From the IMG/VR virus record IMGVR_UViG_3300002144_000382, positions 1 through 46,376 of that record: DNA of 46,376 nt, one strand, 5' to 3'. Below the pieces are notes generated by a model. That model was not told where the DNA came from and ran no database searches. It was given only the letters and a program-made list of their open reading frames with translations. Positions 10,517 through 43,040 of the stretch are shown here, piece by piece (position 1 is the first letter of the stretch; every line of letters begins with the position of its first letter). The translations under genes were made by a program, and so were the position numbers. This DNA is from a virus.

Positions 10517-12010
10517 TTGGCAGAATTTTTTGGTTTCGAAATCAAAAGGAAGCAAGAAGATCTTCCTCTGGTTTCGTTTGTTCCTGATACGGAAGAGGAT
10601 GGCGCTGGTGTTATTACAACCGGTGGACATTTTGGTGTTTATGTTGACCAATCAGGGGGTGAAGCTAAAACAGAGGTAGACCTTATATACAAATATAGAG
10701 ATGCCGCTTCACAGCCAGAATGTGATGCAGCTATTGAAGATATTATTAATGAGGCAATTATTGGCGATCATAATGATGTACCAGTGGAAATTGTATTAGA
10801 CGAGGTTGAAGCCTCTGACAAAATAAAAGAAATGGTTAGAGATGAATTTTACGCCGTATTGGGCCTATTAAACTTTAATCAGTATGCGCATGATATTTTT
10901 CGTAGATGGTATGTAGATGGTAGGTTACCATATCATATTATTATCGATAATAAAAGTCCCAAAAAGGGGATTTTGGAATTAAGATATATTGACCCTACAA
11001 AGTTAAGAAAGATTAAAGAAATAGAGGAAAAAACTGATCCATTGACTGGTAACAAGCTAGTCGTGGGACAAAAAGAGTACTTCCTTTTTCAAGATGATAA
11101 AATGGGTTTAAATTCGCAAGGGCTTAAGATTCACCCAGACTCTATTGCTTATGCAACTTCGGGTTTATTGGATCCTTCCCGAAAAAGGATTATGTCCTAT
11201 TTGCAAAAAGCTATTAAGCCAGTTAACCAGCTTCGAATGATGGAAGACTCCTTAGTAATCTATCGAATCTCTCGTGCTCCTGAAAGACGGATATTTTATA
11301 TTGATGTTGGTAACTTGCCTAAGGGTAAAGCGGAAGAATACCTTCGCGGTATCATGAACCAATATCGAAACAAACTAGTCTATGATGCTAGTACTGGAGA
11401 AATAAAAGATGATCGCAAGCATATGTCAATGCTTGAAGACTTTTTCTTGCCCCGTAGAGAAGGCGGGCGTGGCACTGAAATCTCTACTCTGCCAGGCGGT
11501 GAAAATCTCGGGCAGATTGATGATATCATTTACTTCCAGAAAAAGCTTTATAGATCTCTTAACGTTCCGTTAAACAGATTAGAGCAGGAATCGCAGTTTA
11601 GTTTAGGTAGATCTAATGAAGTATCCAGAGACGAAATTAAGTTTAAAAAGTTTATTGATAGATTAAGAAAAAGATTCTCTGACTTATTCATGCAGTTATT
11701 AAAGACCCAACTGATTTTAAAAGGTATTATTACAAGAGAAGAATGGGCTTCATGGAAAGAATCCATACAGTTTAACTATATCGAAGACAACTACTTTTCG
11801 GAATTAAAAGAATCCGAGATGATTAGGGAGAGATTCGAAATGTTGGCTTCCCTTGATGAGTATGTTGGTAAATACATATCTAATGCTTGGGTACGTAAAA
11901 ATGTTCTTAAGTTTACTGATGATGAAGTTAAGACCATGGAAAAAGAGATTGCTGATGAGGATAAAGCTGGCGAAAATGATATGCCAGATCCAGATGATAT
12001 CCGATACTAG
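10517..12010 (+). CDS. gp20: Portal protein gp20 (TTG start)
   Basis: A 497-residue protein (T4 gp20 is 524). Recognised by FFGFEIKRK at the N-terminus, the LELRYIDPTKLRKIKEI core, PERRIFYIDVGNLPKGKAEE and the DFFLPRREGGRGTEISTLPG segment, all typical of T4-type portals. It forms the dodecameric DNA channel and nucleates prohead assembly. The start is TTG at 10517, supported by AGGAG at 10504-10508 with an 8-nt spacer and by the match of MAEFFGFEIK to the family N-terminus; no ATG is near. Confidence 0.95.
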   Translation: MAEFFGFEIKRKQEDLPLVSFVPDTEEDGAGVITTGGHFGVYVDQSGGEAKTEVDLIYKYRDAASQPECDAAIEDIINEAIIGDHNDVPVEIVLDEVEASDKIKEMVRDEFYAVLGLLNFNQYAHDIFRRWYVDGRLPYHIIIDNKSPKKGILELRYIDPTKLRKIKEIEEKTDPLTGNKLVVGQKEYFLFQDDKMGLNSQGLKIHPDSIAYATSGLLDPSRKRIMSYLQKAIKPVNQLRMMEDSLVIYRISRAPERRIFYIDVGNLPKGKAEEYLRGIMNQYRNKLVYDASTGEIKDDRKHMSMLEDFFLPRREGGRGTEISTLPGGENLGQIDDIIYFQKKLYRSLNVPLNRLEQESQFSLGRSNEVSRDEIKFKKFIDRLRKRFSDLFMQLLKTQLILKGIITREEWASWKESIQFNYIEDNYFSELKESEMIRERFEMLASLDEYVGKYISNAWVRKNVLKFTDDEVKTMEKEIADEDKAGENDMPDPDDIRY

Positions 12011-12022
12011 GATTAATTTTAT

Positions 12023-12030
12023 TATAAATA
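12023..12030 (+). promoter_or_regulatory. T4-type late promoter (TATAAATA) for prohead core genes
   Basis: Exact TATAAATA 19 bp upstream of the 12049 start codon. The leader would be very short (about 6-8 nt), and AAGAGGG at 12034-12040 would lie at or near its 5' end. Confidence 0.8.
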
Positions 12031-12048
12031 TATAAGAGGGTAATATAA

Positions 12049-12216
12049 ATGACAGTAAAAGACATTATAGATTCTGTAAAAGACGGAGATAGTCTAAATG
12101 CAGAAAAGTCCTTTAGTGCAGTAATGGCAGATAAGATAAGTGCTGCATTAGATAGCAAAAGAATAGAAACAGCCTCATCAATGATTGCTGGTCGTAAAAC
12201 AGAAGAAGATGCATAG
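12049..12216 (+). CDS. gp67: Prohead core protein gp67-like (55 aa)
   Basis: A 55-residue protein starting MTVKDIIDSVKDGDSLNAEK and containing FSAVMADKISAALDSKR. The V-K-D-I-I-D-S-V..G-D..A..SF..VMADKI pattern is that of the short gp67-type core proteins found between portal and protease genes in T4-like phages. In T4, gp67 is an internal prohead core protein degraded by gp21 during maturation. RBS AAGAGGG and a late promoter lie directly upstream. Its size makes it easy to miss. Confidence 0.7.
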   Translation: MTVKDIIDSVKDGDSLNAEKSFSAVMADKISAALDSKRIETASSMIAGRKTEEDA

Positions 12217-12218
12217 TA

Positions 12219-12452
12219 ATGATTTCGTTCCTTCAATTAAGAGAAAAAATCAAGCTCGATGCTGGTGAAAAAGAAGTTAGTACAGTAATGGGCGGCAAAG
12301 GAAAAAAGGCAGAAATATCTATCTCTAAAAAGGGGAATAGATACTCTGTCTATATTAATAGCGAAAAGCTGGATGATAACTTCACTAGCGAAAAAGAAGC
12401 TAAAACTGCAGCCGATGACTTTCTTAAGTTGATGGGTGAAGAATTACAATAG
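12219..12452 (+). CDS. Small basic protein, probable prohead core (gp68 position)
   Basis: A 77-residue, Lys/Glu-rich protein starting two bases after the gp67-like stop, so translation is probably coupled. The centre (AEISISKKGNRYSVYINSEK) reads as two beta strands, flanked by charged helices. It occupies the place of T4 gene 68 (141 aa, prohead core), but sequence similarity is too weak for me to confirm it. A capsid-core role is inferred from the location between gene 67 and gene 21. Confidence 0.6.
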   Translation: MISFLQLREKIKLDAGEKEVSTVMGGKGKKAEISISKKGNRYSVYINSEKLDDNFTSEKEAKTAADDFLKLMGEELQ

Positions 12453-12461
12453 GGATTAGAT

Positions 12462-13112
12462 ATGAAGCTAATTGCAGAATATTTTGAAAGCGATTTACAA
12501 CTTATTCAGGAAGCTGATAAGAATGGTAAAAAAAGTCTTGCGATTGAAGGAGTCTTCATGCAAGCCGACCAAAAGAATAGAAATGGTCGGATTTATGAAA
12601 AAAAGATTTTAGAGCGTGCTGTTGCAAAGTACGTAAAAGAACAAGTTAGTACTGGTCGTGCAGTTGGTGAGTTAAACCATCCGGAAGGACCACAGATTAA
12701 CTTGGATAAAGTTTCGCATCGTATTACTGAACTCCGTTGGGATGGCAGTGATGTGATAGGAAAGGCATCGATACTTAACACTCCAATGGGCAATATCGTT
12801 AGCGGTTTGCTTGAAGGTGGGGTTAAGCTTGGTGTATCAAGTCGTGGTATGGGTAGTCTTGTTCAAAAGAATGGCATTAATTACGTGACTGATGACTTTA
12901 TGTTATCCACCGTAGATATAGTCCAAGACCCTTCCGCTCCAGAGGCATTTGTCAATGGAATTATGGAAGGTGTAGATTGGATATGGGATAATGGTATTCT
13001 TAAACAACAAGAGATTGAATTAATTGAGACTGAAATAAAAACCGCTCGAAATATGGGTTCTTCCGATATTGAGATTAAAGCGTTTAAGAATTTCCTCTCG
13101 AAACTTGTATAA
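12462..13112 (+). CDS. gp21: Prohead core protease gp21
   Basis: A 216-residue serine protease (T4 gp21 is 212). Catalytic His is in GELNHPEG (His73) and the nucleophile Ser in GVSSRGMG (Ser126/127), the arrangement of herpesvirus-like/HK97-type prohead proteases. The N-terminal AIEGVFMQADQKNRNGRIY is the family signature. It digests the core and trims the capsid protein after prohead assembly, cutting after (L/I)-x-E. A matching site is present in gp23 here (ISE, residues 56-58). Confidence 0.95.
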   Translation: MKLIAEYFESDLQLIQEADKNGKKSLAIEGVFMQADQKNRNGRIYEKKILERAVAKYVKEQVSTGRAVGELNHPEGPQINLDKVSHRITELRWDGSDVIGKASILNTPMGNIVSGLLEGGVKLGVSSRGMGSLVQKNGINYVTDDFMLSTVDIVQDPSAPEAFVNGIMEGVDWIWDNGILKQQEIELIETEIKTARNMGSSDIEIKAFKNFLSKLV

Positions 13113-13133
13113 CTCTTATAGGAGAGAAAAGAT

Positions 13134-14213
13134 ATGTCTGAAGACACAAGGGTAGAAGTCTTAGAAGACATTTCAAATGAAGAGCTTGTTCAGGAAGAGC
13201 TCGTTGATGACGCACAAGTAATCGACGAGGATGTTCTCGAAGAAGGTAAGGCTAAAGCAGAAGAAGAAGGTGTTGAAATCGAAATCGACGGTGACGAAGA
13301 TGAAGATGAGGAAGAGGAAGAAACTCCTGCTCCTAAGATGGAAATGCCCAAAACTAAAGCTGGCGTTATTCAAGCTGCAGTTGAAATGTTGAAAAAGGCA
13401 AAGAAAGAAGATGCACAAAGCATGTTTGCCAAAATGACCAAGGTAGAAGAAAGCACTGTAGAAGAGGGTGATGTTCAAATCTCTCACATTGATTACTCTG
13501 AAGATCTTGATATTTTAGTAAATGAAGAAGCTACTCTTTCTGAAGGTTTCCGATTAAAAGCATCAACTATTTTTGAAGCAGCTTTGAAAAGCAAAGTTTC
13601 TGCTGAAATTGATAGACTTGAAGCTGAATACTCACAAAACCTAGAAGAAGAAGTTACTGAATTCCAAAGCTCACTAGTAGAGAAAGTAGATTCTTACTTG
13701 AACTATGTTGTTGAAAATTGGATGAAGGATAACGAAGTAGCAGTAGTTTCTGGTCTTAAGACTGAAATTGCTGAAGGCTTTATCACTTCTTTACAAACTG
13801 TATTTAAAGAGCACTATATTGAAGTACCAGAAGGCAAGACTGATCTGATTGATGAATTGTCCGATCAAGTTGCTGAGCTGGAAGAGTCTCTTAATAAATC
13901 CACCGAAGATAACATTCGTTTACACGAGGCTAATCAAGCTCACGCTAAGAAAGAAATTATTCGAAATGCATCTTCAGGACTGTCCGAATCAGAAGCTGAA
14001 AAACTTCAATCTTTCGTAGAAGATATCGATTTTGATAATACTGAAACCTTTGAAATGAAGGTTAAAGTTATTAAAGAATCATACTTTTCACAGAAGAATG
14101 AGTCAGTAGATGAAGCTAACAGTCTAATCGGCGAAGATACAGCACCTGCTGTAGCACTCTCCGAAGTAATGACTAGATACACTCAAGCAATTACAAACAA
14201 CCTTAAAAAATAA
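13134..14213 (+). CDS. gp22: Prohead scaffold core protein gp22
   Basis: A 359-residue, strongly acidic and helical protein, longer than T4 gp22 (269). Residues ~30-65 are a very acidic low-complexity stretch (EIDGDEDEDEEEEE), after which PKTKAGVIQAAVEMLKKAKK begins the conserved region. The C-terminal half (ELSDQVAELEESL, IRNASSGLSESEAEKLQSF, NNLKK end) is predicted coiled coil, the usual scaffold core. Position between 21 and 23 is diagnostic. It should be degraded by gp21 during maturation. Confidence 0.88.
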   Translation: MSEDTRVEVLEDISNEELVQEELVDDAQVIDEDVLEEGKAKAEEEGVEIEIDGDEDEDEEEEETPAPKMEMPKTKAGVIQAAVEMLKKAKKEDAQSMFAKMTKVEESTVEEGDVQISHIDYSEDLDILVNEEATLSEGFRLKASTIFEAALKSKVSAEIDRLEAEYSQNLEEEVTEFQSSLVEKVDSYLNYVVENWMKDNEVAVVSGLKTEIAEGFITSLQTVFKEHYIEVPEGKTDLIDELSDQVAELEESLNKSTEDNIRLHEANQAHAKKEIIRNASSGLSESEAEKLQSFVEDIDFDNTETFEMKVKVIKESYFSQKNESVDEANSLIGEDTAPAVALSEVMTRYTQAITNNLKK

Positions 14214-14237
14214 ACATCTTAATTGGAGAAAATAAAA

Positions 14238-15566
14238 ATGTTTACTGCTGATCAAAATTTGATGGAAAAATGGGCACCTGTCCTAGAGCATTCTGCTGCT
14301 CCTACTATTGCAGATAGCCATAAGCGCTCTGTTACAGCTCGTCTTTTGGAAAACCAAGAAATTGCTATGCGCGAAGATCGTGCACAATCTCAGGGTAACT
14401 ACATTTCTGAAACTGCTGCTAATGCTGGTTTCGGTGGTGCTAATGCTAACATGGCTGGCTTTGACCCCGTACTGATTTCTTTGGTACGTCGTGCAATGCC
14501 TAACCTGATTGCTTATGATATTGCTGGCGTTCAGCCAATGACCGGTCCTACTGGTCTGATCTTCGCTATGAAGAGCAAGTATGCAACTCAAGGCGGAACA
14601 GAGGCATTCTTTGATGAAGCTAATACCGGTTTTTCTGGTACTGGTACTCAACAAGCTGATCCTACTGGTTTGGGCGGTGTTACTGATGCAGTAGCTGGAG
14701 AAGGCATTGTTAATGAAACAGACGTATTGTCTGGTCTTGGTCTTGGTCTTAGTACTGCTGCTGCTGAAGCCCTGGGTAATACTGGTGGTAATTTTGGTGA
14801 AATGGCTTTCTCAATCGAGAAATCAACTGTTACTGCTAAGTCACGTGCACTGAAAGCTGAGTACACTATGGAATTGGCTCAAGACCTTAAAGCTGTACAT
14901 GGTCTGGACGCTGAAGCAGAACTTGCTAACATCCTTTCTTCTGAAATTCTGGCTGAAATCAACCGTGAGATGGTACGTACGGTTATGTCTAAAGCTAAGA
15001 TCGGTGCTCGTCAATCAAATACTGCCATTAACGGTATATTTAATGTCGAAACTGATTCTGACGGTCGTTGGATGGCAGAGAAGTTCAAAGGTCTTGTTAT
15101 GCAGCTTGAAAGAGAAGCTAACGTGATTGCTAAAGAAACTCGTCGCGGTAAGGGTAACTATGTTATCGTTTCTTCAGACGTTGCTTCTGCACTTGCTGCT
15201 TCTGGCATGTTGGACTACTCACCTGCTCTTTCTACTAACCTGAACGTTGATGACACTGGCAACACTTTCGCAGGTGTTCTTAATGGTCGTATGAAAGTTT
15301 ATATCGATCCATATGCTACTGTAGACTTCGCTTGTGTTGGCTATCGTGGTTCTAATCCGTATGATGCTGGTTTGTTCTACTGCCCATACGTACCATTAAC
15401 TATGGTTAAAGCTGTTGGTGAAGTTGACTTCCAGCCACGTATCGGCTTCAAGACTCGATATGGTATGGTTGCTAACCCATTCGTAGCTGCTGATGGTACT
15501 GGCGCTGATCGTTCAAATCCTTACTTCCGAATTTTCCGGATTGATGGTTTGATGACAACTGTATAA
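14238..15566 (+). CDS. gp23: Major capsid protein gp23
   Basis: A 442-residue protein (T4 gp23 is 521). ATG at 14238 with GGAG at 14225-14228 is the likely start; an upstream TTG at 14223 would overlap the ribosome binding site. The family core MVRRAxPNLIAYDIxGVQPM-PTG is present as LVRRAMPNLIAYDIAGVQPM, followed by a phenylalanine-rich shell domain. A gp21 cleavage site is predicted after Glu58 (ISE|T), giving a mature protein starting TAANAGFGG. Codon choice (ggt, gct, cgt) is visibly more uniform than in neighbours, as expected for the most abundant virion protein. Confidence 0.96.
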   Translation: MFTADQNLMEKWAPVLEHSAAPTIADSHKRSVTARLLENQEIAMREDRAQSQGNYISETAANAGFGGANANMAGFDPVLISLVRRAMPNLIAYDIAGVQPMTGPTGLIFAMKSKYATQGGTEAFFDEANTGFSGTGTQQADPTGLGGVTDAVAGEGIVNETDVLSGLGLGLSTAAAEALGNTGGNFGEMAFSIEKSTVTAKSRALKAEYTMELAQDLKAVHGLDAEAELANILSSEILAEINREMVRTVMSKAKIGARQSNTAINGIFNVETDSDGRWMAEKFKGLVMQLEREANVIAKETRRGKGNYVIVSSDVASALAASGMLDYSPALSTNLNVDDTGNTFAGVLNGRMKVYIDPYATVDFACVGYRGSNPYDAGLFYCPYVPLTMVKAVGEVDFQPRIGFKTRYGMVANPFVAADGTGADRSNPYFRIFRIDGLMTTV

Positions 15567-30905: not shown

Positions 30906-33440
30906 ATGATAAAAAAAGCCTTCTATACAAATGTGTCTCGTTACGGTAATCAACTTCTATACCGTGGAATCGAAAATGGTAAAAGGGTTCAAAGGAAATT
31001 CAAATACCAACCTACGCTATTCGTAGCTACCCAAAACCCTACTGATTGGAAAGCCTTAGATGGCACACCAGTAGCCCCAGTACAATTTGATTCAATGCGC
31101 GATTCCAAAGAATGGCTTCAACAGAACAAAAGCGTCTCTGGCCGAAGCATCTTTGGAAACACCAAGCATATTGCATCATTCATTAATGACTATTTCCCTG
31201 GCGATGATATCGAATTCGATAGGTCCCAGATCAATGTAACAACAATCGATATTGAATGCCAGTCTGATGATGGCTTCCCCGAACCTAGCATTGCGGCTAA
31301 AGAAGTTACTGCTATATGCTTAAAAAATAATATCGATGATATCTACTATGTCTGGGGTTTACGCAGTTATGATGTAAGCAAATCCCTAATGAAAACTAAC
31401 AAAGTAATTTATAAAGAATGCTCTACAGAGCAAGAATTACTCACCTCTTTTGTAAACCATTGGGCTACACCCTCTAATACGCCAGATGTTATTACTGGTT
31501 GGAATTGCAGATTCTTTGATATTCCGTACCTTGTTAACAGGATGATACGAGTCTTTGGACCTGACCGTGGATCAGAGCTTGTTAACAAACTTTCTACCTG
31601 GGGTATGGTAGACGAACGAACTGTTAATATGATGAGCAGGGATCAGCAAACCTTTGAAATCCACGGCATTTCTTGCCTTGATTATCTAGAGCTATTCAAA
31701 AAGTTTGGATACTCCTATGGTGCCCAAGAGTCATATCGTCTGGACCATATTGCTAACGTTGTTCTTGGCGAAAAGAAACTCTCGTACCAAGAACACGGCA
31801 ACCTCTTTACCCTGTATAAGGAAGATCATCAAAAGTTTATCGACTATAACATTAAGGACGTTGAACTGGTAGACCGAATCGAAAATAAGATGGGATTGAT
31901 TACTCTAGCGCTCACAATAGCTTATAAAGGCGGCGTTAATTACCCGGAGGTAATGGGAACAACCTCTATTTGGGATTCTATTATTTTTAGAAAGCTATAC
32001 TCCCAAAAGACTATCGTACCATTTGCTACTGATAAAATGAGAAGCCCGTATCCAGGCGGATACGTTAAAGAGCCTATTACTGGAATGCACGATTGGGTAG
32101 TTTCCTTCGACCTTAACTCCCTTTATCCTTCTATTATTATGCAGTATAACATGTCCCCCGAAACTATAGCAGACGGGGAAATCTGCAACATAAACGTTGA
32201 TTCAATCTTAGCTAATCCTTCTATAGCGAATAGCAGGGGGAAATCGCTAGGTGCTAACGGACAATATTTCAATATCGATAAGATGGGGGTATTTCCTGCT
32301 ATTATTTCTGACCTATACGAAGAACGTGTAGGGATTAAACGATCCATGCTTGATTCCCAACAGGAGCTTCAGGGTATAAACAAGGCTGATAAGCAAGAAC
32401 TTCTAAGGCTCGAAAGGGATATATCCATCTCTGAAAACAAACAAATGGCTATTAAGATTCTACTTAACTCCCTTTATGGCGCTATTGGCAACAAATACTT
32501 TAGGTTCTTTGATCAGCGCATAGCAGAAGCCATTACTTTATCTGGTCAGCTTATTATTAGATGGGGCGAAAAAGCCATTAATGACTATATTAACAAGATC
32601 CTAGGAACTAATAAAGACTATGTTATTGCTATCGATACTGACTCTTTGTATGTAAACTTAGGCCCATTAGTTAAAGCTGTAAATCCACCAAACCCTGTCG
32701 ACTTCTTAGATAAAGTGTCTAAGGAAAAGCTAGAAGGTGTACTGAAAGAAGCATACGCTAAACTGTTTGATCAGCTTGGTGGCATCGAAAACAAGATGGT
32801 AATGAAAAGGGAAAACATTGCCAACCGCGGCATCTGGCAGGCTAAAAAGCGATATATCTTAAACGTCTTTGATAGCGAAGGCGTACGATACGCAGAGCCT
32901 AAAATCAAAATGACTGGAATCGAAGCTATTAAGTCTTCCACCCCTATGCCATGTCGTGATGAAATGAAAAAGATGTTTGGCATTATTATTAATGGTACCG
33001 AACAAGAAGTACAAGCAGCAATTGCGGACTTTAAAAAGCTATTCTATACCCTTCCTGCTCATGAGATAGCATTCCCTAGGGGTACAACCAAAGTTACTGA
33101 TTTTGCAGATAGAAATACAATCTATAAAAAGGGAACGCCTATACATGTCCGAGGAGCACTACTCTACAACAAGCTTATTAAGGACCTATCTCTGGACAAA
33201 AAATACACAGAAATTAAAAGCGGTGAAAAGCTTAAATTCATCTATCTTAAAAAGCCAAATCCTATCAAAGAAAATGTCATATCATTCCCCGACTACCTTC
33301 ATGAAGAATTTGGGCTAACCCGCTATATTGATTATGACCTACAGTTTCAAAAAACATATCTAGACGGCATTGAGTCAATACTTAATGCGATTGGCTGGAC
33401 CTCTGAAGAGATTTCAACCCTTGAACAATTTTTCGGATAG
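30906..33440 (+). CDS. gp43: DNA polymerase gp43 (family B)
   Basis: An 844-residue replicative polymerase (T4 gp43 is 898). Exonuclease motifs: Exo I DIE (Asp115/Glu117), Exo II FFDIP (Asp205), Exo III YNIKDVELVD. Polymerase motifs: A DLNSLYPSI (Asp402), B KILLNSLYGAIGN, C IDTDS (Asp577/Asp579). The C-terminus STLEQFFG resembles the T4 tail that binds the clamp (SLDFLFG). The N-terminus MIKKAFYTNVSRYGNQLLYR aligns with T4 residue 1, so the start is right even though it leaves almost no leader after the promoter. Confidence 0.97.
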   Translation: MIKKAFYTNVSRYGNQLLYRGIENGKRVQRKFKYQPTLFVATQNPTDWKALDGTPVAPVQFDSMRDSKEWLQQNKSVSGRSIFGNTKHIASFINDYFPGDDIEFDRSQINVTTIDIECQSDDGFPEPSIAAKEVTAICLKNNIDDIYYVWGLRSYDVSKSLMKTNKVIYKECSTEQELLTSFVNHWATPSNTPDVITGWNCRFFDIPYLVNRMIRVFGPDRGSELVNKLSTWGMVDERTVNMMSRDQQTFEIHGISCLDYLELFKKFGYSYGAQESYRLDHIANVVLGEKKLSYQEHGNLFTLYKEDHQKFIDYNIKDVELVDRIENKMGLITLALTIAYKGGVNYPEVMGTTSIWDSIIFRKLYSQKTIVPFATDKMRSPYPGGYVKEPITGMHDWVVSFDLNSLYPSIIMQYNMSPETIADGEICNINVDSILANPSIANSRGKSLGANGQYFNIDKMGVFPAIISDLYEERVGIKRSMLDSQQELQGINKADKQELLRLERDISISENKQMAIKILLNSLYGAIGNKYFRFFDQRIAEAITLSGQLIIRWGEKAINDYINKILGTNKDYVIAIDTDSLYVNLGPLVKAVNPPNPVDFLDKVSKEKLEGVLKEAYAKLFDQLGGIENKMVMKRENIANRGIWQAKKRYILNVFDSEGVRYAEPKIKMTGIEAIKSSTPMPCRDEMKKMFGIIINGTEQEVQAAIADFKKLFYTLPAHEIAFPRGTTKVTDFADRNTIYKKGTPIHVRGALLYNKLIKDLSLDKKYTEIKSGEKLKFIYLKKPNPIKENVISFPDYLHEEFGLTRYIDYDLQFQKTYLDGIESILNAIGWTSEEISTLEQFFG

Positions 33441-33500: not shown

Positions 33501-33779
33501 ATGATTAAACTAGTAAGATTATCGTCAGGCGAAGAGCTAATTGGCGATGTAAAAGAAACCCCTGATGGCATTACCCTTAGTGATGCTATTATTCTAATTC
33601 CCGCTGGTGAAGGTAAGATTGGGTTTATGCCTTTTATGCCATACACCGAAGCATCAGACGGTATTTCGATCAGCAATCAGTTTATCGTCTTTATGGTAAA
33701 GCCAGTACAAAATCTAATCGATAACCATCGTGAAGCTACTGGCAAAATTGCTTTGCCTCCCTCGAGCATTATACTATGA
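33501..33779 (+). CDS. Putative Sm-like fold protein (second)
   Basis: A 92-residue protein starting MIKLVRLSSGEELIGDVKE, followed by ITLSDAIILIP: a strand, a Ser-Gly-Glu-Glu turn and a bent second strand, as in the Sm1 motif, with a later hydrophobic strand (FIVFMVKP). The N-terminal part matches the protein at 18147 (FKLRSGDEILALV). Good ribosome binding site TTGGAG. It overlaps the following gene by 4 bp (ATGA). An RNA-related role is possible but unproven. Confidence 0.65.
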   Translation: MIKLVRLSSGEELIGDVKETPDGITLSDAIILIPAGEGKIGFMPFMPYTEASDGISISNQFIVFMVKPVQNLIDNHREATGKIALPPSSIIL

Positions 33780-34180
33780 GTAATGACTGGGTAAAAGATA
33801 TTGCTGATATGCAAGACAAGTTTGGAACCCGCGAATGGGTTAAAAATAACCCCGAAAAGCTAAAAGACTTTATGACCTTCAGACTTGACTTTATCGAAGA
33901 AGAGTTTATGGAAACTGTTAAAGCTTTTGTTGAAAATGATCCAGAAGAAATTGTTGATGGTCTTATTGATATTTGTGTAGTAGCTATTGGTACCTTGGAT
34001 GCTTTTGGTGTAAATGCTAACGAAGCTTGGAATAGAGTACTAGAAGCTAATATGGCTAAAAAAGTCGGAATTAAGAAAGAAAGACCAAATCCTTTAGGTT
34101 TACCTGACCTAGAGAAACCAAATGGATGGAAAGCACCATCTCACGAGGGCAATCATGGTATCCTTAACAATATTCAATAG
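33776..34180 (+). CDS. MazG-like all-alpha NTP pyrophosphohydrolase
   Basis: A 134-residue protein. The acidic metal-binding helices EEEFMETVKAF (residues 41-51) and EEIVDGLIDICVVAIGTLDA (58-77) form the E-x-x-E ... E-x-x-D pattern of the MazG / phosphoribosyl-ATP pyrophosphatase superfamily, and K-K-V-G-I-K-K is typical of phage members. It hydrolyses (d)NTPs to monophosphates; phage MazG proteins are thought to tune nucleotide pools or alarmones. Confidence 0.8.
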   Translation: MSNDWVKDIADMQDKFGTREWVKNNPEKLKDFMTFRLDFIEEEFMETVKAFVENDPEEIVDGLIDICVVAIGTLDAFGVNANEAWNRVLEANMAKKVGIKKERPNPLGLPDLEKPNGWKAPSHEGNHGILNNIQ

Positions 34181-35328: not shown

Positions 35329-35799
35329 ATGTTTGAATACAGAGCGAAAATACTACACATAGTGGATGGTGATACCGCAAGGGTCGATGTTGACCTTGGC
35401 TTTGGTATTGTTTATGCCAATCAAGCCGTTAGATTTTTTGGTATCGATACACCTGAATCCAGGACCAAAGATCTTACCGAAAAATGGTATGGAAAACTTG
35501 CCTCTAATTTTGTTAGTGATCATCTAAAAGTAGGCGAAACCTATAAAATGAAGACCACTATTGATAAGGGTAAGTTTGGAAGAATACTTGGTGAATTCTT
35601 TGTCAAGGGGTTTAAAGAAGATCTAGATCCATTTGGTCATAAAGTTCAAGAGGAATTCTCTCTGAACCAAAGAATGGTCGATCTAGGCTATGCTGTTGCT
35701 TACTTTGGTCAATCCAAGGATGATATCCAAGAGCAACATCTAAATAACCGAGTTATTTTAGCAAATAGGGGTTTACATCCCGGCCAATACATGGTATAA
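35329..35799 (+). CDS. Thermonuclease (staphylococcal nuclease-like)
   Basis: A 156-residue OB-fold nuclease. VDGDT at 12-16, RFFGIDTPE with Arg35 and Glu43 (the same numbers as the catalytic pair in staphylococcal nuclease) and KFGRILGEF with Arg85 complete the active site. It should cleave DNA or RNA in a calcium-dependent way. No signal peptide, so it acts inside the cell, perhaps in host DNA breakdown. The last 10 codons and the stop overlap an early promoter for the next gene. Confidence 0.9.
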   Translation: MFEYRAKILHIVDGDTARVDVDLGFGIVYANQAVRFFGIDTPESRTKDLTEKWYGKLASNFVSDHLKVGETYKMKTTIDKGKFGRILGEFFVKGFKEDLDPFGHKVQEEFSLNQRMVDLGYAVAYFGQSKDDIQEQHLNNRVILANRGLHPGQYMV

Positions 35800-35830: not shown

Positions 35831-36304
35831 ATGAAAATCACTGAAATATTTGGCCTTAGTCCTGACATTACTTTTAGCTCCGAAAATCTTTCCCCTGAAA
35901 CGCTAGAAGCTTTAGAGAAAGAAAGCAATCGATTAGCAAATAGTATATTTGGGGGAACATCTGCCAAGGCCTTATCTGGTCGAACCAGGTCTATGAGCGA
36001 TATACAAAGAGATTCTTATAATGGCTTATTGGCTGAATATTATCTTCGCGAAGATCTTGGATGGAAGGATGATCAAGGCCGCTGGAAAGATGTTATTTCC
36101 CCAACCGGTCTAAAGGCCGAGATTAAAACATATAGCTCAGAAAGTCCAGGAACTAAGTATAATCATATTATTAACCTTGAAAATAGAAAAACAAAATATG
36201 ACCATGTAATTATGTTTAAAAGAACAAATGGGGTTTATACCTATGACTCCTACTGGACTTATAACTATGATGAAAAACAGTATAATCTTGAGGAACAACA
36301 ATAA
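35831..36304 (+). CDS. Possible PD-(D/E)xK-type nuclease
   Basis: A 157-residue protein. The order GLLAEYYLRE (Glu69) - WKDV (Asp87) - LKAEIKTYSS (Glu97, Lys99) has the spacing of a restriction-endonuclease fold active site, with E-I-K as the E-x-K motif. The end is Tyr-rich (VYTYDSYWTYNYDEKQY). Phages use such nucleases in host DNA degradation or recombination. It overlaps the next gene by one base (TAATG). Function is inferred from the motif only. Confidence 0.5.
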   Translation: MKITEIFGLSPDITFSSENLSPETLEALEKESNRLANSIFGGTSAKALSGRTRSMSDIQRDSYNGLLAEYYLREDLGWKDDQGRWKDVISPTGLKAEIKTYSSESPGTKYNHIINLENRKTKYDHVIMFKRTNGVYTYDSYWTYNYDEKQYNLEEQQ

Positions 36305-36663
36305 TGAAAACACCAATGGAAGTGCTAAAAGCAGCTGCCGAGATTCAGCAGAAAAAAAGCAATGACTATCAAAACCCAAATTCTAGAGTTAAGCAAGCCC
36401 AGTACTACCCACGTGGCTGTTCGACTATCTCTGATATTATGTTTGGCAAGCTTCTTAGAATCCAGTCTGTTCTAGAAGCTATGGAATCTGATTCCAAATA
36501 CGAGCAGAACTTTGAATCATTAGAAGATTCTGCAATAGACCTAATTAACTACGCTACTTTCTTTGTATCGTATCTTAATGGTGGTATTTCAGGTCAAGAT
36601 CCTGATCGGGACTTTCTTAACAGAGTTAAAGAAAAGACAAGGAGTATTAATGTTGATGAGTAA
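36304..36663 (+). CDS. NMAD1/DUF1599-like protein (nucleotide-modification associated)
   Basis: A 119-residue helical protein. The pattern K-S-N-D-Y...YYPRGCSTISDIMFGKLLRI...SLEDSAIDLINYATFF matches the D-Y-x(n)-R-x-S-x-x-D-x-I-x-x-K-x-x-R-I ... D-x-I-N-Y layout of the DUF1599 / Nmad1 domain, which comparative genomics has linked to phage DNA base-modification clusters and which looks distantly MazG-like. It is directly followed by a ThyA-family gene and an asparagine-synthetase-like gene, supporting that context. Confidence 0.7.
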   Translation: MKTPMEVLKAAAEIQQKKSNDYQNPNSRVKQAQYYPRGCSTISDIMFGKLLRIQSVLEAMESDSKYEQNFESLEDSAIDLINYATFFVSYLNGGISGQDPDRDFLNRVKEKTRSINVDE

Positions 36664-37405
36664 TCATTTCGAATCAGACAATCTAGAAGATGGGCTAAAA
36701 GCCCTTCGATCTAAGTTGCTGACTGATGGATATGAAATTAAAACTGAAAGTTGGCAAGGTAAAGGCCCTGACGAATTTCCAGCCCACCTAGAACTGCTTC
36801 ATGCAGATCTTATTGTACAAATGGCAGCCACGGCTCACGAGGCCTCAACACTGCTAAAAGCTGCTCAACCATGGGCAGATGTGCATCACGAAGAACGGGT
36901 AGGGGGTTTACCTTTAAACCCACCGCCTTCGCACACAATGTGGCTTCGTGATACAGAAAAGTACTTAAGCAAAGATCAACAAGCATTTTCTCATTCATAT
37001 CCAGAAAGAATGTGGTGCGATACCACGACCGATGGAATTCGCTTCAAGTGGGGTAACCTTCAAACGGCAGTTGAATTACTTAAGAAAGAACCTAATACTA
37101 GACAGTGTTATGTTCCTATGTGGTTCCCTGAAGATTCTACTGCTGCTCTAGCAGGCGAACGCGTACCTTGCACCTTTGGATGGCATTTTATGTTAAGGGA
37201 TGGAAAACTCCATTGCTCATATCATATGCGATCCTGTGATGTATGCAGACATTTGCATAATGATCTTTATTTTGCAAACCGATTAGTTTTGTGGATGATC
37301 GAGCAATCCGGCATAGATGCTGTACCAGGCACTTTGCACTTCTCCGCTACTTCCTTACATTGTTTTGTAGTTGATAGATACGTTCTTAAAAATATGGTGA
37401 AATAA
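36650..37405 (+). CDS. Thymidylate synthase-superfamily (ThyA-like) nucleotide C5-modifying enzyme
   Basis: A 251-residue protein from ATG 36650 (AAGGAG 5 nt upstream); earlier in-frame starts are inside the preceding gene. The C-terminal 120 residues follow ThyA: LQTAVELLKKEPNTRQCYV, nucleophile Cys174 in VPCTF, DGKLHCSYHMRSCD (Arg194, Ser195, Asp197), Asn204 at the base-recognition position and His237. The N-terminal half is divergent. As ThyX is also encoded (42369), this protein is more likely a dUMP/dCMP hydroxymethylase-type enzyme that makes a modified base than a duplicate thymidylate synthase. Asn at the key position favours dUMP. Confidence 0.8.
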   Translation: MLMSNHFESDNLEDGLKALRSKLLTDGYEIKTESWQGKGPDEFPAHLELLHADLIVQMAATAHEASTLLKAAQPWADVHHEERVGGLPLNPPPSHTMWLRDTEKYLSKDQQAFSHSYPERMWCDTTTDGIRFKWGNLQTAVELLKKEPNTRQCYVPMWFPEDSTAALAGERVPCTFGWHFMLRDGKLHCSYHMRSCDVCRHLHNDLYFANRLVLWMIEQSGIDAVPGTLHFSATSLHCFVVDRYVLKNMVK

Positions 37406-37406
37406 T

Positions 37407-38720
37407 ATGTGTGGTTTTATAGCTGGAAGCGACCTACATCAGACAACTAGTCTTTCTGATGTTATAGAAAAAATCTCTTATCGGGGATTACCAGGACTTA
37501 AGGGCTTTGAAGAGTATGGTCGGCACCAGCTGGCACATTACAGTTTGCCCTTTGTTAACCTGAATCCAAAGGTTGCTATTCAGCCTATGCACGTTAATAG
37601 TATACCTTCATTATTTGTTGGGGAAATCTTTAATTATAATGAAATCTCTGATACTAAATATGATACGGACTCTAGAGCAATACACACCGAATACCTAAAT
37701 CATGGTCTTGATGTGTTTCATAAGTTCGATGGTTTTTGGTCATTCGTTACTATTAAGGATGATAGCTTATTTGCCGTAACTGATTATTTGGCCCAAAAGC
37801 CAATATATTATAGAACAGACTGCGAGGTTTTAGCGTCTGAGATTGATGTGCTTTTGACATTTGGTAAAAACACTAGGAACCAGTTATTTCATTCGAATGT
37901 AATGAAGTGGGGCTATGATCCTACTGGTAATACACCTTGGAATGAAATTAAACAGGTTCCTCCTGGACATTACTATCACAAGGGTGCAGTTATTCCTTAC
38001 TGGGATTGGTCTAAAGTGAAAAAGACAAATCTTAGGGATGACCTTAAAAAAGCCACTAGTCTGCGATTAGGGGGTCAAAGAAAACTGTCTATTCTTCTTT
38101 CTGGGGGTCTGGATTCTACCATTATATACGGACTAATCAAAGAGCTAGGTCGTGAGGTTACCGCTATACACGTAGAAAATCACGAGCATAGTTATGCCCA
38201 TATGGTGTGTGAAAGTCTCGTACAGGTGGAATTAGGAGGTGTTACGGATGAAGAAGCGGTCCTTATACACCAAACCCCTGTAGATCTAGGATCTGTTAAA
38301 CCCCAAATAGCTATGGCTCGCAAGCTCAGAGAATTAGGCTTTCATACTGTTCTTACCGGCGATGGTGCTGATGAGTTATTTGGCGGATATCGCAGAGCAG
38401 AAGATTATGATAGCCAGTATTCGGATGTCTTCTGCGAACTGCCTTATTACCATCTTCCTAGACTAGATCGTACTATGATGCACGAAACTATAGAACTTCG
38501 TTCCCCATTTTTAGCCCCCTCGATTGTAGCTCATGCTTTAGACGTGCCCTATGATCTAAGGAATGGCGAAAAAAAGGTCTTGAAAGATACATTTAAAGAT
38601 ATAGTTCCTAAAGAAATATTGGATAGACCTAAGCATGCACTTAAAACGGATGCTATTAGGTTATACCCTATTCAGCAGCGTGCTATTAATCAAACTATAT
38701 GGGATAAGTTATATGGGTAA
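37407..38720 (+). CDS. Asparagine synthetase-like glutamine amidotransferase
   Basis: A 437-residue protein, shorter than AsnB (~554). Class II amidotransferase domain: Cys2 nucleophile (MCGFIAG), YRGLPG, GEIFNYNEI, HKFDGFWSFV. ATP-pyrophosphatase domain: SGGLDS at 232-237 and GDGADELFGGY at 318-328, with a late ELRSPFLAP and K-H-A-L-K. It should transfer glutamine-derived ammonia to an adenylated carboxylate. In this context the substrate may be a modified nucleotide rather than aspartate. One base separates it from the ThyA-like gene. Confidence 0.85.
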   Translation: MCGFIAGSDLHQTTSLSDVIEKISYRGLPGLKGFEEYGRHQLAHYSLPFVNLNPKVAIQPMHVNSIPSLFVGEIFNYNEISDTKYDTDSRAIHTEYLNHGLDVFHKFDGFWSFVTIKDDSLFAVTDYLAQKPIYYRTDCEVLASEIDVLLTFGKNTRNQLFHSNVMKWGYDPTGNTPWNEIKQVPPGHYYHKGAVIPYWDWSKVKKTNLRDDLKKATSLRLGGQRKLSILLSGGLDSTIIYGLIKELGREVTAIHVENHEHSYAHMVCESLVQVELGGVTDEEAVLIHQTPVDLGSVKPQIAMARKLRELGFHTVLTGDGADELFGGYRRAEDYDSQYSDVFCELPYYHLPRLDRTMMHETIELRSPFLAPSIVAHALDVPYDLRNGEKKVLKDTFKDIVPKEILDRPKHALKTDAIRLYPIQQRAINQTIWDKLYG

Positions 38721-39150
38721 TAATTGGAATAATAAGTATATGGATCTAGCAAAGACCGTATCTAAATGGTCTAAAGACCCATCTGCTAAGATTGGTTCTG
38801 TTGCTATTAGCAGTTCAGGACAGGTATTAGCCCAAGGTTATAATGGTTTCCCTAGAGGGATCAATGATAGCGAGACCCGCTATAATGACCGAGAGGTTAA
38901 GTATTCCTATGTAGTACATGCTGAAATGAATACGATCTATAACGCATGTATGAATGGTGTTAGCTTGTCTGACTCTACTTTTTATGTTCATGGCTTGCCA
39001 GTCTGCAATGAATGCGCTAAGGGTATTATTCAGGTAGGAACAAAAAAAGTAGTTATGAGTGGGGATATGGATAATCCTCGATGGGTTGAATCATGCAAAA
39101 AAGCGTGTGATCTATTTGATGAAGCCGGGGTTAAATGGGAGTTTATTTAG
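38713..39150 (+). CDS. dCMP deaminase-like cytidine deaminase
   Basis: A 145-residue zinc deaminase (T4 Cd is 193). The catalytic HAE (His69, Glu71) and PVCNEC (Cys98, Cys101) bind zinc. The N-terminal YMDLAKTVSKWSKDPSAKIGSV...YNGFPRG is typical of dCMP deaminases. It converts dCMP to dUMP, substrate of ThyX and possibly of the ThyA-like enzyme. Start ATG 38713 overlaps the preceding stop by 8 bp. It ends just before the next early promoter. Confidence 0.9.
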   Translation: MGNNWNNKYMDLAKTVSKWSKDPSAKIGSVAISSSGQVLAQGYNGFPRGINDSETRYNDREVKYSYVVHAEMNTIYNACMNGVSLSDSTFYVHGLPVCNECAKGIIQVGTKKVVMSGDMDNPRWVESCKKACDLFDEAGVKWEFI

Positions 39151-39454: not shown

Positions 39455-40516
39455 ATGTCCTCTATAATGGATAAACTCAAAAAGAACTCTAAGATTAAAA
39501 CAACAGATATCCTTTCTGATTCAATCTTTTTTACCAACGAGTTTGTAAAAACAGAAGTCCCTATGATTAATGTTGCTCTTTCGGGCGATATTGACGGTGG
39601 CTTAACATCAGGGCTTACAGTGTTAGCCGGTCCTTCAAAGCATTTTAAAACCTCATTTGCTTTGTTAATGGCTGGTGCATACATGAAAGAACATAAAGAT
39701 TCTATGATGTTATTTTATGATTCCGAGTTTGGCTCACCCCAGTCCTATTTCCAACAGTTTGGAATTGATACTGCACGGGTTTTGCATACCCCAGTTATGA
39801 ACATTGAAGAACTAAAATTCGATATTGTTAATCAGCTAGAGGCTATTGACCGGAAAGATAAAGTTATCATTGTCATAGATTCTATCGGTAATATTGCTTC
39901 TAAGAAAGAATTAGACGATGCTATGAACGAAAAAGCTGTTGCTGATATGTCACGAGCCAAAGCGTTGAAAGGTCTTTTCCGTATGGTAACCCCATATCTA
40001 ACAATGAAAGACATTCCCCTTCTTGCTATTAACCATACATATCAGGAAATGGGTTTATTCCCTAAAGCCATTGTGTCAGGCGGAACCGGCATCTACTATT
40101 CAGCAGATAACATCTGGATCATTGGACGGCAACAGAATAAGCAAGGAACAGAAATTAAGGGGTATAATTTTGTCATTAACGTTGAAAAGTCTCGATCAGT
40201 TAAAGAAAAATCCAAGATTCCTATTGGGGTTACTTGGGAGGGTGGTATTGCTACCTATAGCGGCTTGCTTGATATTGCTCTTGCTGGGGGTTACGTTGCT
40301 AAGCCTTCCAATGGTTGGTATTGTCTGGTTGATAGAGAAACTGGAGAAATGATGGAACCAAAAGTAAGAGAAAAAGATACGATGGAAAAAGCATTTTGGA
40401 CACCGGTGTTTAATGGTACCGACTTTAAAGCCTTCGTTAAGTCTTACTATCAGATTGGTCATAAGCCTTTATTGGATATAAACCTTGATATTCAGCAGGA
40501 TGTGTCGGGTGTATAA
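39455..40516 (+). CDS. uvsX: Recombinase UvsX (RecA-like)
   Basis: A 353-residue protein (T4 UvsX is 391). Walker A GPSKHFKTS at 59-67 is the UvsX-specific form; MLFYDSEFGSP, VIIVIDSIGN (Walker B) and LLAINHTYQEMG follow. It catalyses strand exchange with UvsY and gp32 help and drives recombination-dependent replication. The start is one base after the bS21 stop; AGG lies 11 nt upstream. Its 3' end overlaps the next small gene. Confidence 0.95.
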   Translation: MSSIMDKLKKNSKIKTTDILSDSIFFTNEFVKTEVPMINVALSGDIDGGLTSGLTVLAGPSKHFKTSFALLMAGAYMKEHKDSMMLFYDSEFGSPQSYFQQFGIDTARVLHTPVMNIEELKFDIVNQLEAIDRKDKVIIVIDSIGNIASKKELDDAMNEKAVADMSRAKALKGLFRMVTPYLTMKDIPLLAINHTYQEMGLFPKAIVSGGTGIYYSADNIWIIGRQQNKQGTEIKGYNFVINVEKSRSVKEKSKIPIGVTWEGGIATYSGLLDIALAGGYVAKPSNGWYCLVDRETGEMMEPKVREKDTMEKAFWTPVFNGTDFKAFVKSYYQIGHKPLLDINLDIQQDVSGV

Positions 40517-42368: not shown

Positions 42369-43040
42369 TTGAAAGTAAAGCTTATATCTTATTCTCAGCT
42401 ACCTCCGGGTGTTGAGTCTGATATCGTAGATAATGACCTATTACAACTGGTAGCTTACTGTGCTAGGGTATCAAACCCTTCCAATCAGAATAACCCAGAT
42501 ACTTCTGAAAAGCTAGTTAAATACCTTATGAAACACAAGCATTGGTCCCCCCTAGAAATGGTTTCTGTTTGTTTGGAGGTCGAGACAACAAGAGATATAG
42601 CAAGACAGTTCCTTCGCCATAGGTCGTTCTCATTTCAGGAGTTTAGCCAGAGATACGCAGACCCAGTTAAAGATCTGAATTTCGAGCTTCGTGATGCAAG
42701 ACTGCAAGATCCCAAAAACCGCCAAAATAGTATTCCTCTTGATATGAGTGATGAATATGAAGGGGGATTACAGGATCGCTGGTATCAAAGGCAGCAAAGG
42801 GTGATTGATGAATCTCTGATGGCTTATAAATGGGCAATTGATAATGGTATTGCTAAAGAACAAGCTAGGGCTGTACTTCCAGAAGGCAATACTATGTCTA
42901 GATTGTATGCCAATGGTACGCTCCGCAGTTGGATACATTATATGGATCTTAGAGGAGCTAACGGTACACAGTCTGAGCATATAGAAATTGCTAAGGCTTG
43001 TGCTAAAGTAATATATGAGATTTTTCCATTAGAAGTATAA
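42369..43040 (+). CDS. thyX: FAD-dependent thymidylate synthase ThyX (TTG start)
   Basis: A 223-residue protein. The ThyX motif R-H-R-x7-S is complete (Arg83-His-Arg85 to Ser93: RHRSFSFQEFS), and LRSWIHYMDLR with E-H-I-E-I-A-K follows. It methylates dUMP to dTMP using methylenetetrahydrofolate and FAD. The start is TTG 42369, with GGAG at 42358-42361 and a 7-nt spacer; the N-terminus MKVKLISYSQ fits the family. It is the true dTMP source here, leaving the ThyA-like protein at 36650 free for another reaction. Confidence 0.95.
   Translation: MKVKLISYSQLPPGVESDIVDNDLLQLVAYCARVSNPSNQNNPDTSEKLVKYLMKHKHWSPLEMVSVCLEVETTRDIARQFLRHRSFSFQEFSQRYADPVKDLNFELRDARLQDPKNRQNSIPLDMSDEYEGGLQDRWYQRQQRVIDESLMAYKWAIDNGIAKEQARAVLPEGNTMSRLYANGTLRSWIHYMDLRGANGTQSEHIEIAKACAKVIYEIFPLEV

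Follow-up and report, generated by a model that had tools for sequence, protein, structure and literature searches.

Why should a virus that encodes a complete ThyX also keep a ThyA-like gene, and keep it beside a homologue of asparagine synthetase? The question is raised by IMG/VR record IMGVR_UViG_3300002144_000382, a viral stretch of 46,376 bases (hereafter the window) from a marine T4-like virus, which carries T4-type genes and whose UvsW has its top relative in Phage C48C1 (54% identity), with Methylophilales phage Melnitz and cyanophages at 51–53%. Four of its genes form a consecutive set on the plus strand, each overlapping or abutting the next: a small NMAD1/DUF1599-like gene (36304–36663), a ThyA-fold gene (36650–37405), an AsnB-like gene (37407–38720), and a gene for a deoxycytidine monophosphate (dCMP) deaminase (38707–39150), the start of which overlaps the end of the AsnB-like gene by 14 nucleotides (nt).

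A first-pass annotation had taken these four genes for a possible DNA base hypermodification cassette acting on deoxyuridine monophosphate (dUMP). The layout it described is there, and the protein families were assigned here with Pfam, PHROGs and NCBIfam profiles. We think that the idea of modification was probably right, that the substrate is most likely dCMP and not dUMP, and that the hydroxymethyl step is doubtful. Judging from the sequences, a cytosine base-modification cassette with the AsnB-like protein as tailoring enzyme is the best reading of the locus, and a reasonably probable one; the specific carboxylate and amide chemistry that we propose for it is tentative.

A ThyA-fold enzyme predicted to act on dCMP

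The predicted core of the cassette, the ThyA-like protein, matches PF00303 (E 1.6e-8; 34.4 bits, over the cut-off of 24.3) and phrog_160 (E 4.6e-31), and does not reach the NCBIfam equivalog cut-offs for thymidylate synthase (TS; best 35.2 versus 174.55 bits). Cys174, Arg194, Asp197 and His237, which the first-pass annotation had reported as intact, lie at just those positions and are conserved in 80–81 of 81 family members. The catalytic Cys174, set in PC[T/S], and Asp205 are found in all 81 and correspond to C148 and D179 of T4 gp42; Asp205 also aligns with E. coli N177, and the dUMP-type Asn is absent from every member. A change from Asn to Asp at position 177 is cited as switching the substrate of TS from dUMP to dCMP, and genes encoding Asp177 ThyA, dCMP deaminase and PRA-PH pyrophosphohydrolase are enriched in metagenomic DNA whose cytosine is modified (PMC8670742). 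Since this known switch is uniform across the family, dCMP is a well supported candidate for the substrate. An ordinary ThyA would moreover be unnecessary, because deoxythymidine monophosphate (dTMP) is supplied by ThyX, the flavin adenine dinucleotide (FAD)-dependent thymidylate synthase, which is complete in the window (42369–43040, plus strand; PF02511, E 3.6e-40; TIGR02170, 150.5 bits over a cut-off of 87.9), as had been argued earlier.

A second set of residues bears on what the enzyme would do to dCMP. Hydroxymethylases are marked by Asp or Glu at the third residue ahead of the Cys and by Ser or Thr at the second ahead of the active-site Tyr; in T4, Asp145 activates the water molecule by which the new carbon at C5 is attacked (PMC6400193). 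All 81 window-type proteins have Arg (Arg171) at the T4 D145 position, C-3, and all have His two before the Tyr (His115-Ser116-Tyr117), where T4 has S94-x-Y96. His79 is aligned with the folate residue Glu60 in 81/81, in a region where the alignment has gaps and model confidence is lower, so this match is indicative only. Phe239 was noted as well, and at position 218 the enzyme carries Phe, like RB69. The chemistry is thus probably neither that of TS nor ordinary hydroxymethylation, and because Arg171 occupies the place of Asp145, a carboxylate-bearing co-substrate is attractive.

In trees built with FastTree, the window ThyA clade groups with the proteins of phrog_160 phages and with two further loci treated below (L092 and L248), apart from RB69, T4 gp42 and TS. 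The window proteins and phrog_160 would therefore constitute, by sequence, a third group beside T4 gp42 (folate), RB69/AfhB (flavin) and TS. An AlphaFold2 (AF2) model of the window protein (predicted local distance difference test, pLDDT, 76.7) has the TS fold. Its best match by sequence (E 1.2e-6), Foldseek and VIA-align is AfhB of RB69/HY126, a flavin-dependent dCMP 5-hydroxylase that has been solved with dCMP and FAD (PDB 9iqu, 9iqc) and falls in the RB69 ORF048c group by sequence. The VIA-align scores (Z 18.4 for AfhB, 16.8 for MilA, about 16 for ordinary TS) amount to a modest structural preference of the model, and the shared fold shows no cofactor. The two enzymes have D179 and Phe218 in common, but the RB69 group carries F60, E145 and N171 where the window enzyme has H, R and D.

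An AsnB-like enzyme with an intact ATP site

The adjacent gene had been described as encoding a class II glutamine amidotransferase (GATase) with an ATP-PPase domain, and both are recovered (GATase_7, E 4e-9; Asn_synthase, E 1.9e-30). The best sequence and fold matches of this protein are asparagine synthetases: its model (pLDDT 89.5) finds E. coli AsnB as best match in the PDB (1ct9, E 4e-24), with human ASNS and beta-lactam synthetase as further structural matches. The ATP site is intact (SGGLDS, GDGADELFGGY), with S232, D236 and S237 of the SGGxDS motif and the N-terminal C2 present in 74/74 AsnB-like members, and the GATase domain retains Cys2 together with residues equivalent to E76 and D98. 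We predict an amide-forming tailoring enzyme, for which ammonia is the probable amide donor because the GATase domain has been retained.

Conservation and synteny among marine T4-like relatives

Scanning IMG/VR with the window ThyA-like protein gave 80 loci at 60–77% identity, on which the window proteins were then mapped. AsnB is next to or near the ThyA-like gene in 76 of these; three of the remaining loci stop within 180 nt past ThyA and one (L079) is genuinely without AsnB, i.e. 76 of 77 marine viral loci with sufficient downstream DNA keep the pair. A second scan, with the AsnB alignment as query, returned 80 loci of which 62 were new, and 58 of these have ThyA upstream (the other four have no more than 111 nt of DNA upstream of AsnB); the two sets of counts are not independent, since many loci sit on the same contigs. 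Most mapped loci show ThyA, AsnB and a deaminase linked to AsnB, followed by UvsX and DnaB, with a MazG/PRA-PH-like gene close to ThyA in most relatives. The ThyA–AsnB–deaminase arrangement is not due to chance.

The cassette of the window stands between a T4-like DNA polymerase (gp43; 30906–33440, plus strand) and the UvsX recombinase (39455–40516, plus strand), as it does in the relatives, and the order polymerase, cassette, UvsX, DnaB parallels 43 – 42 – bgt – uvsX – 40 – 41 of T4. The ThyA-like gene thus holds the place of gp42, and AsnB that of the beta-glucosyltransferase (beta-gt); in RB69, a gene similar to dCMP hydroxymethylase lies within the same polymerase–uvsX interval. Likeness to T4 extends to the TS fold, the catalytic Cys and the dCMP-type Asp of the core enzyme, which nonetheless lacks S94 and D145 and aligns a His with E60, and the tailoring gene that follows is AsnB-like instead of a glycosyltransferase.

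Several loci vary this theme. The ThyA-like gene of L079 (3046–3792; 60% identical to that of the window) adjoins portal-like genes and is accompanied by NMAD1, MazG and a deaminase-like gene, a natural example of the core minus the tailoring gene. In L051 and L054 an adenosylhomocysteinase-like gene and a methyltransferase (MTase)-like gene, 'F10' (see below), are inserted between ThyA and AsnB, which looks as if a step dependent on S-adenosylmethionine (SAM) were part of the pathway, and in L046, L049 and L052 a different MTase-like open reading frame (ORF) with an NPPY motif occupies that place. KdsA-, KdsB-, phosphomannomutase- and cytidylyltransferase-like genes lie upstream of ThyA in L036, L044 and related T4-like loci, possibly for sugar decoration of DNA or envelope. 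L044 also has a uvsX that seems to be split in two ORFs (about 11344–14291) around a 276-aa ORF of family F77, a possible intron or intein with endonuclease.

Pairing of AsnB and ThyA in other phage genome types

AsnB is also found close to a ThyA-fold gene in four further phage genome types (L092/L247, L093, L248 and L249/L250), in differing gene surroundings. Bacterial genomes scanned with the AsnB alignment contained two close relatives, L092 (38%), whose contig is present in IMG/VR as a virus contig too, and L093 (36%), which is phage-like by gene content; scans with the AsnB and F10 proteins of L093 recovered L248, L249 and L250. All five were found without a ThyA query, so the co-occurrence with ThyA is not circular. 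The genes are AsnB, C5-MTase-like, ThyA, MazG and deaminase in L092; kinase-like, dUTPase-2-like, F10, C5-MTase-like, AsnB, ThyA and deaminase in L093; DUF6378, ThyA, AsnB, MazG and a small nuclease in L248; and, in the mutually related L249 and L250, kinase-like, AsnB, dUTPase-2-like and F10, then (in L249) C5-MTase-like, then ThyA and deaminase. Arg at C-3 is present in every AsnB-linked ThyA examined, including those of L093, L249 and L250, which share it with the window clade but keep Glu at 60.

F10 (L072:4015–4944 and homologues; L093:3800–4717) is an N6_N4-MTase-like protein with a Cys-rich N-terminus, whose gene precedes ThyA in many T4-like loci and is absent from the window; motif IV reads NGTPY in L072 (the T4-like example) and L093, and NPPY in L249 and L250. 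Methyltransferase PF01555 has no match in the window and was present in 4 of 13 records tested. The C5-MTase-like proteins beside AsnB or ThyA (L092:7373–8791, L093:4740–5990, L249:8696–10045) have HPEC or HTDC in place of PPC in motif IV, and D[ND]L in place of ENV, and may act on cytosine that is already substituted. The L093 protein had no match in 16 records, in a search that had no positive control.

A proposed pathway and its competitors

The dCMP-type active site, the catalytic Cys, the intact ATP site, the linkage of the genes and their syntenic place are seen directly. From these we infer the group added, the substrate of the AsnB-like enzyme, the sequence of reactions and a shielding of the DNA from host nucleases; the route would run as follows. 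One or more nucleoside triphosphate (NTP) pyrophosphatases would convert dCTP to dCMP, a candidate for this depletion being the MazG/PRA-PH-like protein encoded at 33776–34180 (plus strand; PF01503, E 1.8e-10). The ThyA-fold enzyme would bind dCMP through Asp205, attack C6 with Cys174 and add a substituent at C5. With ATP, the AsnB-like enzyme, working on the nucleotide or on DNA, would then activate a carboxylate already on that substituent, or later joined to it, and form an amide, its nitrogen probably drawn from ammonia. The modified nucleotide would be phosphorylated and incorporated replacing cytosine, while deaminase and ThyX would turn leftover dCMP into dTMP. In its full form, we tentatively suggest that a third class of TS-fold enzyme places a carboxylate group held by Arg171 on C5 of dCMP, that the AsnB-like enzyme amidates it, and that amide-bearing cytosine occurs in marine T4-like and several unrelated phages.

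Two points count for this chemistry in particular. Arg171 is well placed to hold the carboxylate that AsnB-type chemistry requires, and an AsnB-like phage protein that amidates a cytosine carboxylate is already known: CmoY, the ligase of the CmoA/CmoX/CmoY system, adds glycine to 5-carboxymethylcytosine in DNA, and a GATase-bearing CmoY cluster exists that is predicted to use ammonia (PMC12783734). If true, the proposal would describe a nucleotide-level route to amide-bearing cytosine in a marine T4-like clade, parallel to the post-replicative CmoX/CmoY route, and a means, not described before, by which phages mask their DNA, although phage cytosine hypermodification as such is already known. 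Bases of this sort usually determine whether a given restriction, CRISPR or type IV system can act on a phage.

Other observations weigh against it. In the glutamine site of the AsnB-like protein, R49 is replaced by S or A and N74 by V in 74/74 members (mature E. coli numbering), and because of these changes glutamine use and ammonia delivery are uncertain; L092 and L249 (the latter by sequence reading) keep Arg49 with Val at 74, and L093 keeps both R49 and N74. Arg171 is not specific for AsnB, since ThyA of the R/H type also occurs without it in L079 and the phrog_160 phages. Nor was an enzyme with a known route to a C5 carboxylate found. The window, moreover, is a 46 kb fragment and carries only part of the genes of its virus.

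A nearer relative of known systems would be an enzyme that first makes 5-hydroxymethyl-dCMP, as in T4, or 5-hydroxy-dCMP, as in RB69 and AfhB, with the AsnB-like protein adding a further group to the hydroxyl-bearing base. The syntenic place, which is that of T4 gp42 and RB69 ORF048c, the match to AfhB and the Phe at 218 all fit this account. It nevertheless appears unlikely to us: the window enzyme lacks both the folate set (E60, D145, S94) and the flavin-type set (F60, E145, N171), its clade branches apart from both groups in the tree, and AsnB chemistry requires a carboxylate and not a hydroxyl.

Alternatively, the AsnB-like gene might be an auxiliary metabolic gene making free asparagine, with the ThyA-like enzyme modifying cytosine independently, a view to which the asparagine synthetases among the best fold and sequence matches lend some weight. 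We regard it as distinctly improbable, given that the protein misses the equivalog cut-off of TIGR01536 (172.5 versus 267.1 bits), that its clade branches outside E. coli AsnB (support 0.992), that R49 and N74 are lost, and that five genome types show AsnB next to a ThyA gene of the dCMP type.

The route favoured by the first-pass annotation, in which the deaminase makes dUMP, the ThyA-like enzyme converts it to C5-hydroxymethyl-dUMP and AsnB amidates the product to give hypermodified thymine-type bases, has the adjacency of the genes in its favour, and known phage pathways to 5-hydroxymethyldeoxyuridine (hmdU) do employ TS-fold enzymes. With Asp and not Asn at the N177 position in 81/81, and with Arg171 and His115 where the hydroxymethylase signature should be, it is very improbable.

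The least credible alternative is a CmoX/CmoY-type system, where carboxy-SAM would give rise to 5-carboxymethylcytosine and the AsnB-like protein would act on it as a CmoY. The likeness is real, in that both have an AsnB-type ligase with a cytosine carboxylate as its presumed substrate, and in TurkishDelight the genes for a dcm-like MTase, AsnB and CmoA are neighbours, but CmoA (TIGR00740, which does detect the phage CmoA of TurkishDelight at 89.5 bits) has no match in 17 records of relatives, including contigs of 114–157 kb, the C5-MTase family PF00145 has none in 12 such records (contigs up to 157 kb), the place of the DNA methyltransferase is taken in the window by a ThyA-fold enzyme, and the AsnB clade of the window, which holds L092 and L093, is separate from the CmoY-type protein of TurkishDelight. 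In the S-B43 locus (L090) we read CmoA, CmoY and CmoX, the CmoY being 271 aa long and without a GATase domain.

Among described systems, CmoA/CmoX/CmoY is nonetheless the nearest in concept to the amide-bearing cytosine that we propose. A further parallel is found in the 5-hydroxymethylcytosine (5hmC) carbamoyltransferase cassettes of MetaGPA (PMC8670742), which likewise have an Asp177 ThyA, PRA-PH, a dCMP deaminase and a tailoring enzyme, there a TobZ-like carbamoyltransferase and not AsnB. A literature search that left bioRxiv and most subscription papers outside its range found no paper pairing a ThyA-fold dCMP enzyme with AsnB. Possible prior art includes, in particular, the comparative genomics of Iyer et al. 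(2013).

phrog_160 'thymidylate synthases'

The H/H/R/D active-site set of the window enzyme is common to phrog_160 proteins annotated as thymidylate synthases in phages Zuko, Muddy, Emalyn and PMBT14, and the large phrog_160 set so annotated probably consists of dCMP enzymes; Arg at C-3 and the His pair are the residues by which such enzymes might be found. These genes also lie near genes for pyrophosphohydrolase/dUTPase, kinase and, mostly, dCMP deaminase. They differ from the window in that no AsnB was seen near ThyA and that an additional ORF stands directly, or almost directly, upstream of it (L082:8865–9926, L083:6784–7815, L084:7228–8016; gp47 in Muddy and in Emalyn). The three such ORFs tested had no Pfam match. 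By eye the ORF resembles a divergent second ThyA-fold protein, with a Cys followed by R..D spaced 11 as in dCMP-type ThyA, and the two proteins possibly form a heteromeric enzyme.

Neighbouring genes

The deaminase (HAE...CNEC; PF00383, E 9e-20; phrog_174, E 2.7e-35) is what it had been claimed to be, though its likelier role is to feed ThyX with dUMP, as happens in T4, rather than to open the modification route. The NMAD1-like gene, a small protein of uncertain role, had been taken as a pointer to base modification. The gene is present, but its match to the family is weak (PF07659, E 9e-4, 20 bits, under the Pfam gathering cut-off of 25; phrog_18404, E 3e-11) and it is not adjacent to the cassette in many relatives; the Melnitz protein annotated as 'nucleotide modification associated domain' sits elsewhere in that genome. 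NMAD1 therefore contributes little to the modification reading. A relationship to MazG was rejected (profile comparison, 0.2% probability, both alignments being shallow).

Upstream of the cassette lie the two nucleases reported earlier. The thermonuclease (SNase-like; 35329–35799, plus strand) is well matched (PF00565, E 4e-11). The small PD-(D/E)xK-like candidate (35831–36304, plus strand), directly 5' of the cassette, had no match in Pfam, PHROGs or NCBIfam, while 17 homologues share its E69, D87, E97 and K99. Both are compatible with a scheme that distinguishes self from non-self DNA. A possibly similar small PD-(D/E)xK-like nuclease follows MazG in L248 (9737–10153).

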